From contig NZ_CP150144.1 of the NCBI RefSeq assembly GCF_037963145.1, forward strand, positions 682,001 to 746,000: a DNA stretch of 64,000 nt, written 5' to 3'. Source of the stretch: Oceanobacillus sp. FSL K6-2867. GTDB taxonomy: Bacteria > Bacillota > Bacilli > Bacillales > Amphibacillaceae. A program made the position numbers and the translations under genes. Below are positions 14,991 to 19,786 of the stretch, piece after piece. A model generated the notes under the pieces. That model was not told where the DNA came from and did not search any database. It was given only the letters and a program-made list of their open reading frames with translations. Position 1 is the stretch's first letter. Every line of letters begins with the position of its first letter.

Positions 14991-15029
14991 CCTCCATCAT
15001 ATGAATGTATAAATAACTTATGATGGAGG
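14991..15029 (+). promoter_or_regulatory. Hairpin covering the ribosome site of the 65-aa gene
   Basis: CCTCCATCATA (14991-15001) is the exact reverse complement of TATGATGGAGG (15019-15029), and the right arm contains the GGAGG ribosome site of the gene starting at 15036. Folding would block translation. No long T run follows, so it is not a clear terminator. Confidence 0.65.
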
Positions 15030-15035
15030 TTTTCC

Positions 15036-15233
15036 ATGATTAATGAATTATTGGACGCGTTTGAGATGGAACACAAATTTGCCCCTCAAACAATTGATAA
15101 TTTATTAGACTATTGCCAGAAAAAATATATCCATGGCGAAATAGACCTTAAAACATATCGCAAATTTTATAATTGCTTACATGAAAAAGGTGCTGTTTCT
15201 GCACATGAGCTCTCAATCGAGAGTAAAATTTAA
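15036..15233 (+). CDS. YppF-like small protein (65 aa)
   Basis: A soluble 65-aa protein with two or three predicted helices (INELLDAFEMEH, TIDNLLDYCQKKYIHGEI, LKTYRKFYNCLHEKGA). The pattern NLLDY-x5-YI-x6-YR and the ...EKGAV end resemble the YppF family of Bacillus, but this is recognition by pattern only. GGAGG lies seven bases from ATG and is part of an 11-pair hairpin, suggesting translational control. Function unknown. Confidence 0.7.
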   Translation: MINELLDAFEMEHKFAPQTIDNLLDYCQKKYIHGEIDLKTYRKFYNCLHEKGAVSAHELSIESKI

Positions 15234-15287
15234 ACGTATTACATTGCCTGTGCCTTCTCTCCTCGGGTCTTCCTAATCTTTTTCCAT

Positions 15288-15313
15288 GATTGAAATTTAT
15301 CGATCCCGGGTAC
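15288..15313 (+). promoter_or_regulatory. Sigma-B-like promoter of the SDR gene
   Basis: GATTGA at 15288-15293, 14 bases, then GGGTAC at 15308-15313. Compared with the sigma-B consensus GTTTAA-N12-15-GGGTAT, the -10 box matches five of six and the -35 box four of six. It lies about 20 bases before the ribosome site of a gene whose B. subtilis relatives are general-stress proteins. Confidence 0.6.
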
Positions 15314-15350
15314 ATTGTTAATAAGCGATTTTCAAGGAGGACCTATTATT

Positions 15351-16223
15351 ATGGATATGGAACAAAAAAACGGAACACAAACACCACCTGCACAAATACA
15401 GCATAAACAGCCAGGAATAGAAGCAAAAATGAAACCAGAGCCAGCATATATTCGAAATAATTACAAAGGCAGTGATAAATTAAAGGATAAGGTTGCCATT
15501 ATTACTGGCGGAGACAGTGGTATTGGAAGATCTGCAAGTGTCCACTTTGCAAGGGAAGGTGCATCTGTCGCTATTATCTATCTGGATGAACATGAGGATG
15601 CGAATGATACAAAAAGACTGGTTGAAAATGAAGGTCAGAAATGCATTTTAATTAGCGGCGATATTGGAAATCAATCCTTTTGTGAGGCCGCTGTTACAGA
15701 GGTTTTAGATACATTCGGAAAAATTGATATATTAGTAAATAATGCTGCTGAACAGCACATACAAAACAGCATCATGGGTATTACGAGTGAACAGCTGGAA
15801 AAAACATTCCGCACAAATATTTTCAGTATGTTTTATTTGACAAAAGCTGTATTACCGAACCTGAAAGCAGGCAGCAGCATTATTAATACATCCTCCGTTA
15901 CTGCATACAAAGGGAATGTAGATTTAATTGATTATTCGGCTACAAAGGGAGCAATTACTTCCTTTACCCGTTCACTTTCCGGATCTCTTGTAGATAAAGG
16001 CATTCGGGTAAATGGTATTGCGCCGGGACCAATTTGGACACCATTAATCCCAGCATCTTTTACAGAGGAAAAAGTAAGTAATTTCGGTGCAGATACACCA
16101 ATGAAACGCCCTGGGCAGCCGCAGGAATTAGGACCAGCATATGTCTATCTGGCAAGTGAAGATGCAAGCTATATTACTGGTCAAATGATTCATATTAATG
16201 GCGGTACAATTCTGAATGGATAA
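15351..16223 (+). CDS. Short-chain dehydrogenase/reductase, general-stress (Gsp39/YdaD) type
   Basis: NAD(P)-dependent SDR, 290 aa. An N-terminal extension of about 45 residues rich in Gln/Pro precedes the Rossmann fold, a feature of the YdaD/YhxC/YhdF group. Motifs: TGGDSGIGR (coenzyme), NNAAEQ, catalytic Ser in NTSSVTAY, YSATK (Tyr and Lys), and the C-terminal TGQMIHINGG. AAGGAGG precedes the first ATG by ten bases. A sigma-B-like promoter upstream agrees with a stress role; substrate unknown. Confidence 0.9.
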   Translation: MDMEQKNGTQTPPAQIQHKQPGIEAKMKPEPAYIRNNYKGSDKLKDKVAIITGGDSGIGRSASVHFAREGASVAIIYLDEHEDANDTKRLVENEGQKCILISGDIGNQSFCEAAVTEVLDTFGKIDILVNNAAEQHIQNSIMGITSEQLEKTFRTNIFSMFYLTKAVLPNLKAGSSIINTSSVTAYKGNVDLIDYSATKGAITSFTRSLSGSLVDKGIRVNGIAPGPIWTPLIPASFTEEKVSNFGADTPMKRPGQPQELGPAYVYLASEDASYITGQMIHINGGTILNG

Positions 16224-16297
16224 TTAGAGAACTTGCCATCACATAGATTTTTTTAGGTAGCGTTCTTTGCTTTCTTATTTGCCAAACAAAATAGATG

Positions 16298-16336
16298 AAG
16301 GCTCCGCAGAAATATCCTTCGCTTCTGGAGAGCCTT
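16298..16336 (-). terminator. Terminator of the GH13 gene
   Basis: AAGGCTC and GAGCCTT arms with an inner CGCAGAA/TTCTG stem, six bases past the stop codon on the minus strand, followed by a moderately T-rich stretch. Confidence 0.75.
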
Positions 16337-16341
16337 CCTTC

Positions 16342-17835
16342 TTATTGCATCCGTTTCTTTTGTTTTGTACTTAAGTAAATTACAGCTCCAACAAACAAAA
16401 TAAATACACCGGCGACAAACCCAATAAATAACCAATTAATGCCTGCGTCTGGTTGAATTGTATACACTTCAGCACTTTCTCGTGCTAATCCAATACGATA
16501 ATCTCCGTTTTCATTTTCTCTAACTAAATTATCACCAAGGTATCCTCTTAATTCCATATTAGAAGGTATGTCAGCAATATCGACATATGCTGACTCACTA
16601 CCATTGTTGATTGCAATATACATCGATTCATCCTTATACGTTCGTTTAAACACACTCATCGCATCAGAGGTATCAACAATTTCGAAGTCTCCATACCTTA
16701 ATACAGGAAACTCATTACGCAATGCAGAGATCCGATTATGGAATTCCTTTAAATCCGGCTCACCACTATTAAACGGTACTAAACGCTGCGATTCTTCTGC
16801 ATCTGCACCATACATCGGAAGTTCACTTCCTTGAAGCACCATTGGTACACCTGGTGTTGTGTACATATAAGTTAATGCCAATGACCATGTCGTTAGCGTA
16901 TTTCTTCTATTCTCTGAAAATTCCTGTGTAAATCGTTTTGAATTAAAATCATCCATATACAATAACGGTTTCTGATTTTCTGCTGTTTGCCATACTTCAT
17001 AAATATTTTTCACAGCACTGTCTGGTTCAGCAAATACCTCCACCATTGCATCTTTTAAGCGCATACTGCTTACCGCATCCAGTGAAGTATCACTTATTAA
17101 TTCAGCACTATTCTCATCCGTAACGAGGATATCACCAAGCAAATAAAACTCAGGATTCAATTCTTTTACGTGCTGTGTAAAGCTCTTCAGAAACGCCAAG
17201 GGCGCTTGATCAACTGCCTGAAGCTTAAAGCCATCAATTTCTGTTTCATTCATCCAGTATTCTGCAATGTCAAGTAAATAAGCTTCCACATCTGGATGCT
17301 CCAAGTTTAAACGAGCAGTGTTCTCCATCCAAGCTGGATCTGTCAATTCATTATCAATGAACCAGTCTGCTTTCTCAGGATCGTCGATGAATGGATGACT
17401 TGCTGCAGCGTAATTTGCAACAAATTCCATAACTACTTTCATACCCCGATTATGCGCTTCTTCAATCAAAGTTTGCAGGTCTTCCATTGTCCCAAAATGC
17501 TCTTCCACTTGATAAAAATCTTCAATCCAATAGCCATGGAAGCCTTTTTCACTATTTTCCATTAAAGAGGATAAAGAAATTGTTGTAACCCCGATTTCCT
17601 GTAAATCATCAAGCTTTGCAATTACGCCTTGCAAATCTCCTCCTTGATATGCTTGCTGATCGTCCAGATTTACTTGAGTGTCATTAGTCGGTGTCCCATT
17701 ATTGTAACGATCTATCATGATATTATATATAATTTCGTCCTCTAGTCCCCGTTCTCCCTCTGCTGCAACATTGGGAACAAATGACGCAAACGCCATCATA
17801 CTTATTGCTAAAAGCACCCCTGCTATTTTCCTCAT
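16342..17835 (-). CDS. Membrane-anchored GH13 (alpha-amylase fold) protein lacking catalytic residues
   Basis: A 497-aa exported protein: signal peptide (about residues 1-25, ending NVAAEG), alpha-amylase (beta/alpha)8 barrel, a C-terminal all-beta domain, then one membrane helix (about 464-486) and a KQKKR tail. Fold markers are clear: IIYNIMIDRYNNG, YQGGDLQGVIAKLD, GVTTISLSS, GFHGYWIEDFY, TPGVPMVLQGSE. All catalytic positions are changed: the nucleophile Asp is Gln206 (GFKLQAV for GFRLDAV), the acid Glu is Asp235 (LLGDI), and the NHD triplet is DFN (residues 296-298). Region I DxVxNH reads EFVANY. So it is probably a non-catalytic glycan-binding or scaffold protein on the outer face. GGAGG sets the start. 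Confidence 0.88.
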   Translation of the reverse strand: MRKIAGVLLAISMMAFASFVPNVAAEGERGLEDEIIYNIMIDRYNNGTPTNDTQVNLDDQQAYQGGDLQGVIAKLDDLQEIGVTTISLSSLMENSEKGFHGYWIEDFYQVEEHFGTMEDLQTLIEEAHNRGMKVVMEFVANYAAASHPFIDDPEKADWFIDNELTDPAWMENTARLNLEHPDVEAYLLDIAEYWMNETEIDGFKLQAVDQAPLAFLKSFTQHVKELNPEFYLLGDILVTDENSAELISDTSLDAVSSMRLKDAMVEVFAEPDSAVKNIYEVWQTAENQKPLLYMDDFNSKRFTQEFSENRRNTLTTWSLALTYMYTTPGVPMVLQGSELPMYGADAEESQRLVPFNSGEPDLKEFHNRISALRNEFPVLRYGDFEIVDTSDAMSVFKRTYKDESMYIAINNGSESAYVDIADIPSNMELRGYLGDNLVRENENGDYRIGLARESAEVYTIQPDAGINWLFIGFVAGVFILFVGAVIYLSTKQKKRMQ

Positions 17836-17965
17836 AAACAATCCTCCATCACTTTTCAGGCTGCAAACTATCTCTTTACTTTATTATTAAGGAAGGAAAA
17901 AAATAGTCAATGCCATTGCTTCGATTGTTGAAAAGCCTTCACATTATTAGATTAAATTCATCTAA

Positions 17966-17993
17966 AAAGGCTGCCCAAAATGGACAGCCTTTT
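17966..17993. terminator. Terminator after yisL
   Basis: AAAGGCTG and AGCCTTT arms with an inner pairing, T-rich on the plus strand and A-rich on the other side, between yisL and the GH13 gene (both minus strand). Confidence 0.7.
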
Positions 17994-18003
17994 CCCTTCG
18001 CTA

Positions 18004-18378
18004 TTAAAAATAAAAGCCCATTGGCAAGCGGAAGAAACCAAGTACAAGTACAATGAGAAGTGCAATCCAAAATTGTATCCAAACACTTTTTGCTGGTTTT
18101 CCTTTGCCTAATTTTACAAGAATCATTTCCATTGCGGCAATAAGCCAGATACCTGCAGCTCCTTTTGTAGCAGCTTCTGCCGGATATGGCATTTGATAGC
18201 CGCCACTGAAATAATCCAATACGAGTACAATACCTGTATACAGAATAAACAAGTAAACTAGACGTAAGATCATGTGTACGATTTTCGCTGGTTTTGCTTT
18301 ACCTTGTTTTTGCATTACAATTGCAACGATGAACAAAATTAATCCTAATACCCATCCAGTAATGTGCATATGTGTCAT
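18004..18378 (-). CDS. yisL: YisL family membrane protein (UPF0344/DUF1516)
   Basis: A 124-aa protein with four hydrophobic helices, containing the family's GKAKPAKI-x-HM-x-LR-L-Y and later GKGKPAKS repeat-like cytoplasmic loops and the WLIAAMEM segment. Function unknown. AGGAGG is eight bases from the first ATG. Its upstream region, shared with divergent rocD, contains a short repeat remnant. Confidence 0.9.
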   Translation of the reverse strand: MTHMHITGWVLGLILFIVAIVMQKQGKAKPAKIVHMILRLVYLFILYTGIVLVLDYFSGGYQMPYPAEAATKGAAGIWLIAAMEMILVKLGKGKPAKSVWIQFWIALLIVLVLGFFRLPMGFYF

Positions 18379-18408
18379 TAATGCTACCTCCTTATATCAG
18401 CATTCAAA

Positions 18409-18448
18409 GTTGTCCAAAAAGTCGTTAAAATCTTCCTTTTGCACACAT
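18409..18448. repeat. Internally deleted copy of the family C (MITE-like) element
   Basis: GTTGTCCAAAAAGTCGTTAAAA is joined directly to TCTTCCTTTTGCACAC. These correspond to the two ends of the full element at 22778-23038 (GTTGTTCAAAAAGTCCGGTAAAA and CTCCTTTTGAACACG), with about 220 internal bases missing. It lies 30 bases upstream of yisL. Confidence 0.72.
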
Positions 18449-18595
18449 TCTTCAGATCTGATATACCGATTTCTATTCGTATCATATCATGGAACTAAGA
18501 ATAATTCATTTATTTGCTCTAAGGTGAAGTAAATCAATTCCAAAGCTGTTATACTGAAGTTAGTGTTTAAATTTTCCAACAATGGAGGGTCAAAT

Positions 18596-19786
18596 ATGAG
18601 AAGTCAAGAAATTATCGACCAGACACAGCAATTTGGTGCGAAGAACTATCATCCCCTTCCAGTAGTCATTTCAAAAGCAGAAAATGTTTGGGTCGAGGAT
18701 CCAGAAGGAAATCGTTATTTAGATATGCTTAGCGCTTATTCAGCCGTTAATCAGGGACACAGGCATCCTAAAATTATTGCAGCATTAAAAAAGCAGGCAG
18801 ACAATGTCACACTAACATCCAGAGCGTTTCATAATGATCAATTAGGAACATGGTATGAAAAAATTTGCAAGCTGACAAATAAAGATATGGCACTTCCAAT
18901 GAATACTGGCGCCGAAGCTGTAGAAACAGCAATCAAAGCTGCAAGGCGCTGGGCATATGATGTCAAAGGAGTAGAAAATAACAAAGCTGAAATTATCGCT
19001 TGCGAAGGCAACTTTCATGGTCGAACAATGACAGCGGTTTCTTTATCTTCTGAATTTGAATACCAACGCGGCTTCGGGCCAATGCTCCCAGGGATTAAAC
19101 TAATCCCGTACGGAGATATTGATGCTCTAAAGAATGCTATTAATGAGAATACGGCTGGTTTTCTTTTCGAACCAATTCAAGGAGAAGCCGGGATTATTAT
19201 TCCACCTGATGGATTTCTAAAAGAAGCTTATGACGTGTGCAAGGAAAATAATGTCCTATATATTGCAGATGAAATTCAATCGGGACTTGGTCGAAGCGGA
19301 AAACTATTTGCTTGCGACTGGGAGCATGTTTCTCCAGATATTTTAATTCTCGGAAAAGCCTTAGGTGGCGGCGTTTTCCCAATTTCCTGTATTGTTGCCA
19401 ACAATGACATTCTTGGTGTATTCAATCCTGGATCACATGGTTCTACTTTTGGCGGGAACCCACTTGCCTGTGCGGTTTCGATTGCATCATTAGAGGTTTT
19501 GGAAGAAGAAAAGCTAGCTGGCCGGTCCCTTGAGATGGGCAATCACATGCTCAATGAACTTAAGAAAATTAATAATGCAATCATAAAGGAAGTCCGTGGC
19601 AAAGGATTATTTGTTGGTGTTGAGCTTGCTGAAAGTGCTCGCCCATATTGTGAGGCATTAAAGGAGAAAGGTCTATTATGTAAAGAAACACATGAGAATG
19701 TTATCCGTTTTGCCCCACCACTTGTCATTTCTAAAAAAGACTTAGATTGGGCTATAGAACGAATCAAAGATGTATTACAGCCATAA
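18596..19786 (+). CDS. rocD: Ornithine aminotransferase RocD
   Basis: PLP-dependent ornithine--oxo-acid transaminase of arginine/ornithine breakdown, yielding glutamate-5-semialdehyde. The 396-aa length is typical. Features: [15 protein letters not shown] near residue 100, the PLP contact FEPIQGEAG and [11 protein letters not shown] (Asp), the Schiff-base Lys in [10 protein letters not shown], and [16 protein letters not shown] fixes the start at MRSQEI. Single-gene unit ended by a strong terminator; other roc genes are not in the window. Confidence 0.95.

Follow-up and report, generated by a model that had tools for sequence, protein, structure and literature searches.

GH13_45 proteins that lack the catalytic triad were already described by Sarian 2017 (PMC5347038), whose group ii consists of putative GH13_45 members (Nos 28-34) in which the entire triad is substituted "without an obvious regularity". 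The same paper reported as active BmaN1, which has a K-E-H triad and for which Asp203, Glu231 and His294 are claimed as catalytic residues, and a kcat of 255.80 per s has been given for this protein (PMC11448133). The mammalian 4F2hc and rBAT ectodomains are termed "fake or orphan" glucosidases in the title of PMC8537225; in these SLC3 heavy subunits the membrane domain precedes the ectodomain and the SLC7 partner is covalently linked (PMC8537225). In its accessible text, Sarian 2017 (PMC5347038) treats neither recurrence nor selection, and its genome context is confined to the promoter of bmaN1 itself. We found no publication on recurrence, operon place or anchor retention in a literature search that reached few subscription journals.

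The window, by which we mean the whole stretch of 64,000 nucleotides that was analyzed, holds a gene whose product has GH13_45 alpha-amylases as its closest relatives by both sequence and structure (Table 1). The protein also falls among GH13_45 in a tree that held this family and four deep outgroup rows only, and it has the C-terminal membrane helix region of the subfamily. However, the motif LPDlx in CSR-V (as defined in PMC11239784) reads ARLNL at residues 174-178, and the GH13_45 Trp pair (PMC5347038) is replaced by Tyr193-Trp194. The alignment confirmed the claim of the first-pass annotation that the catalytic residues are replaced: the three catalytic Asp/Glu/Asp of GH13, i.e., the nucleophile, the general acid and the third Asp of a competent enzyme, are Gln206, Asp235 and Asn298, and region I has Glu137/Tyr142. 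Judging from these residues we infer that the protein is inactive, and the annotation's "probably non-catalytic" can be kept at that strength.

Table 1. The GH13_45-like gene and its upstream region, with positions in the window.
Feature	Position	Strand	Basis or remark
Degenerate GH13_45 alpha-amylase homologue, CDS, 497 aa	16342..17835	-	ORF and family match
GxN linker, transmembrane helix (about 469-490) and basic tail	16345..16449	-	Structure model
Domain C, residues 382-462, PF22026; constraint retained	16450..16692	-	
Domains A and B, (beta/alpha)8 barrel, residues 28-381	16693..17754	-	
Region IV Asp295-Asn298, DDFN for DNHD	16942..16953	-	
Asp235 at the general acid Glu position	17131..17133	-	
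Gln206 at the catalytic nucleophile Asp position	17218..17220	-	
Region I MEFVANYAA, Glu137/Tyr142 where Asp/His are expected	17404..17430	-	
Signal peptide, about residues 1-25, ending in NVAA	17761..17835	-	Cleavage place judged by eye
Ribosome binding site GGAGG	17843..17847	-	Read in sequence
Promoter-like site TTGACT-16-AATAAT	17883..17910	-	10/12 matches; same place in kin
Conserved upstream element TGTGAAGGCTTTTCAACAAT	17924..17943	-	Before the TTGACT promoter-like site; also given as TGTGAANNNTTTTCAACAAT

The annotation had also described a membrane-anchored protein with a signal peptide, and this description is supported both by the predicted structure, which has an N-terminal helix at residues 2-18 and a C-terminal anchor spanning 468-496, and by the relatives. 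By a simple hydrophobicity rule, all 94 substituted rows of the tree described below have a C-terminal membrane helix followed by a basic tail, and 92 of the 94 have a hydrophobic N-terminus, the remaining two having late starts. Helix and basic tail are likewise present in 65 of the 69 D-E-D rows (L155 being counted within the 69), the exceptions being the four deep outgroup rows.

The substitutions extend to the orthologs. All 28 genomes of the window's genus that were examined were typed, and in all 28 the gene is a substituted open frame. A second GH13_45-like copy was not found in these genomes among the matches listed, weaker GH13 matches being untyped; when an intact GH13_45 query was used, the remaining matches in the same genomes had no more than 39% barrel identity or were shorter (untyped), and lay mostly in frames of at least 549 residues. 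Across the best 120 of 575 homologs, among which the query is counted, the nucleophile column never has Asp, each sequence carrying His, Gln or Pro there; the acid column is Glu in two and the third place is Asp in four. The best 120 listed homologs of an intact relative, for comparison, read D-E-D in 116 cases, D-E-N in three and D-E-E in one. The kin that bear names belong to Oceanobacillus, Virgibacillus, Lentibacillus, Paucisalibacillus, Cerasibacillus and Ornithinibacillus. Paucisalibacillus globulus holds both kinds of gene: the copy at the yisL place is substituted and the one beside mal genes is intact (L087, L131). GH13_45 copies split in two frames were seen as a second copy in one genome (G033; L074) and in Melghiribacillus (L146); a further split copy (L070) looks to be from the same genome as the latter.

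In other Bacillaceae, where the amylase is intact, the gene order is LacI-GH13-malG-malF-malE with a neopullulanase-like gene. As a rule one flank consists of degV, yajQ and an SDR gene and the other, beyond the mal genes, of asnO and yisL, which gives a largely conserved order of degV-yajQ-SDR-[LacI-GH13-malGFE]-asnO-yisL (we assigned names such as malG, degV, asnO and yisL by similarity). Loci of the window's clade mostly have the GH13 gene alone between those same flanks; O. sojae-like loci differ on the degV side. A malEFG-LacI operon is found elsewhere in the window's genome (C1:3544000-3559000; L170), at a distance from the old place; it includes an oligo-1,6-glucosidase-like gene and lacks GH13_45. 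A MalG match at E 1e-60 is missing from 4 of the 28 genus genomes, and the substituted gene is still kept in these four; its role is therefore not tied to maltodextrin import. We rejected yisL as a functional partner: it adjoins the gene in most clade loci, yet the pairing is inherited from the older gene order and so its adjacency is no evidence of partnership. In other lineages asnO or other genes stand between the GH13 gene and yisL.

Substituted GH13_45 copies arose repeatedly, mostly where malGFE was gone. Our trees were of the "quick" kind, with SH-aLRT support only, and the catalytic columns were left out of the 87-locus tree. That tree (50 non-DED and 37 DED loci) requires 8 state changes, at least 5 of which are forced by starred branches, while the 163-row tree requires 10, with at least 7 forced in this way. 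For the 87 loci, a single origin of the substituted rows (51, including L155) was rejected (lnL 125.85 lower, p-AU 0.0014). We read the changes as losses because the deep rows are intact, the method itself being blind to gain versus loss. The row L155, which has D-E-D letters in otherwise lost motifs, was counted as intact in the 87-locus tree and the anchor count, as substituted in the single-origin test, and was left unlabelled in the 163-row state count. The rows dropped from the 163-row tree were 21 loci that were near-copies or from the same genome, all but 11 of the clade loci L031-L062, and the rows shorter than 400 residues (L070, L074, and L146, all split copies); two identical pairs were kept (L106/L285 and L096/L225).

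We sought malGFE within the fetched stretches, of about 4-6 kb a side and shorter at contig ends, and scored it as present when two or more of its genes were found. By this measure 87 substituted rows of the 163-row tree are without malGFE and 7 are with it, and 62 intact rows are with it and 6 without, with one row unlabelled. A further 60 loci gave 36 substituted without and 4 with malGFE, and 19 intact with and 1 without, although this was a non-random set (40 of 52 hand-picked middling-score genomes plus 20 hand-picked high-scoring ones), a few of which came from genomes already included (L239, L276, L285). In independent pairs, loss of the triad and loss of malGFE went the same way in 5.1, the other way in 0.0 and showed no difference in 1.9 (median p 0.0625); with the 87-row tree the median p was 0.125. 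By counts the link between the two losses is strong, but since these values are modest and there are exceptions both ways, we consider it likely and not proven. Both orders of loss were seen. An intact triad stands without malGFE in L293, L227, and L228, the first of which may represent a transitional state, and malGFE accompanies a lost triad in L237, L245, L248, L261, L153, L069, and L147; the other intact rows without malGFE (L152, L154, and L156) are outgroup rows. By group code, L293 has congeners (L243, L244, and L264) that are substituted.

In the window, a promoter-like site of its own precedes the gene, and yisL appears to end in its own hairpin, which was seen by eye with a T run after the gene at about 17993-17964. 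A promoter scan returned 3 sites versus 7.0 from shuffles, hence the scan alone is no evidence; a terminator scan found none, and there was no Rfam match within 15000-19000. The loose TGTGAAGGCTTTTCAACAAT pattern of the upstream element matches 42 of the 46 loci in the clade, with four genomes counted twice, versus 2 of 79 other loci. The form TGAANNNTTTTYAACAAT occurs exactly once in the genome, upstream of this gene, and the strict form of the element has four one-mismatch matches versus two for the reversed control. The element resembles a ResD-type box. However, the genome-wide pattern gave 9 matches against 8 for its reversed control, and no recognizable respiratory gene starts beside these matches, as judged by the first residues of the neighboring frames. 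One of the four one-mismatch matches is near qcrABC, but it is inside the presumed qcrB frame. Control of the gene by ResDE is unsupported and we reject it. No good match to a catabolite-repression (cre) site was seen by eye.

The annotation's view that the gene is maintained rather than decaying agrees with the pattern of selection. By the Nei-Gojobori method, all 14 pairs of substituted genes, taken as partly overlapping triplets, gave a dN/dS of 0.098-0.157, which is far below 1 and therefore indicates purifying selection. Intact copies are held two to three times more tightly, with a dN/dS of 0.012-0.083 in the four of nine pairs whose dS was unsaturated. To locate what is kept, we compared normalized site rates (in log units) among 42 clade, 35 other substituted and 49 intact distinct rows. 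Relative to the intact rows, the cleft (residues 136-178, 201-211, 230-239, and 291-302, a set that thereby includes domain B) shifted by +1.51 in the window's clade and by +2.00 in the remaining substituted lineages; the corresponding shifts were +0.54 and +0.73 for the rest of the barrel and -1.22 and -0.64 for domain C. The difference between cleft and domain C has p values of 1.4e-15 and 7e-17, which are nominal as sites are not independent. The dN of domain C over the dS of the gene was 0.03-0.14 for 12 substituted pairs, against 0.04-0.09 for the four of eight intact pairs with usable dS; these are about equal and constraint on domain C has therefore been retained, not gained. In substituted copies, then, constraint on the cleft is relaxed and that on domain C is retained, which fits partner binding but could also reflect folding. 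The anchor was considered as the constrained part and rejected: site rates relative to intact copies suggested it, but pairwise dN did not, the anchor sequence being only loosely constrained at short range. What we retain is that the anchor is present.

That catalytic residues were lost repeatedly while the protein and its tether were kept suggests a second job. We give about even weight to the reading that the window's protein, tethered at the surface, is no longer catalytic and serves in binding or as a scaffold, thereby continuing an older second role that the anchored amylase had. The ancestral GH13_45 alpha-amylase would have been anchored on the outer face of the membrane beside the maltodextrin importer, and would have had or gained a second role, independent of catalysis, that needed the anchored body and above all domain C. 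In the window's lineage malGFE has gone from the place, the catalytic residues have been replaced and the gene stands behind a promoter-like site of its own. On this account activity would be lost, a second role would exist, and a partner would be bound through domain C and the membrane-facing side.

A serious rival, although we think it rather unlikely, is ligand binding in a cleft remodeled in the window's clade, which would hold an oligosaccharide or wall polymer at the surface without cutting it. The clade has kept HGYW (His100, Gly101, Tyr102, and Trp103, conservation 0.94-1.00) and has newly conserved Tyr142 (0.94), His/Gln206, Asp209 (0.96) and Gln335 (1.00), and its regions I, II, III, and IV evolve at 0.50, 0.49, 0.91, and 1.14 of the mean rate. 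The slowness of regions I and II together with the new conserved residues points to a ligand in the cleft and makes a remodeled pocket possible. However, one wall of the cleft is made up by domain B, and this domain is shortened and evolves fast in the clade (1.51 of the mean); LPDlx is lost, and regions II and III are faster than the mean in the remaining substituted lineages (1.35 and 1.58 of it). It is more doubtful still that the protein remains an enzyme with unusual catalytic residues, as claimed for BmaN1. In keeping with that idea BmaN1 was reported to be active (PMC5347038, PMC11448133), and both Asp235 (0.86) and Asp209 are acidic and mostly conserved in the clade, but the Lys-Asp, Glu, and His of BmaN1 differ from the clade's residues, some clade members have N, G, T, or S at position 235, and position 298 varies widely. 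Moreover BmaN1, whose locus (L217-L220; motifs YHGYA, VEFPLT, and GYYVKDIDQ) we found through its published C-terminus, may itself belong to the same grade, because that locus is without the region I Asp...His and malGFE. A functionless, slowly decaying remnant is very improbable, since the looser dN/dS and the existence of broken copies (the second copy in G033, L074) are set against open frames in 28/28 genomes, low dN/dS in 14/14 pairs, an anchor in 94/94 rows and a conserved promoter region.

Returning to the reading of a retained second role, its extension to the subfamily is more tentative and we hold it at somewhat below even confidence. GH13_45 amylases would be two-function proteins which, besides cutting starch, have an envelope- or transporter-related role in Bacillaceae; catalysis would have been discarded repeatedly, in independent events, when maltodextrin use moved or was lost, with the second role kept, leaving widespread surface pseudo-amylases that are named alpha-amylase and perhaps include BmaN1. 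Recurrent loss of catalysis with the anchor kept amounts to a natural experiment. It points to a second, hidden function of GH13_45, which thereby becomes testable. In Bacillaceae many proteins are probably misnamed "alpha-amylase", and the pattern gives reason to re-test the reported activity of BmaN1.

Among known systems, the GH13_45 alpha-amylases GTA (4e2o), those of Anoxybacillus (5a2a/5a2c) and BaqA are the nearest kin of the window's protein, which differs from them in the replacement of the whole triad, LPDlx and the Trp pair, in its shortened domain B and in the absence of malGFE from the place. The 4F2hc and rBAT ectodomains similarly have a GH13-family body on one membrane helix, a likeness that the first-pass annotation had put forward and that holds at best in the sense of "works like": unlike those proteins, in which the membrane domain is N-terminal of the ectodomain and the SLC7 partner is linked by a disulfide, the window's protein has its anchor at the C-terminus and contains no cysteine. 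The BmaN1 group, from Priestia megaterium, shares with it a substituted triad, a transmembrane helix and a locus from which malGFE is missing, the BmaN1 locus having LacI beside the gene, but differs in having Lys-Asp, Glu, and His at the three catalytic places, in its reported activity and in forming a separate branch of the tree. The closest fit is to the description of group ii of Sarian 2017 (PMC5347038). Its main text does not name Oceanobacillus, overlap with our set is possible, and both group ii and the window's protein are closer to BaqA than to BmaN1.
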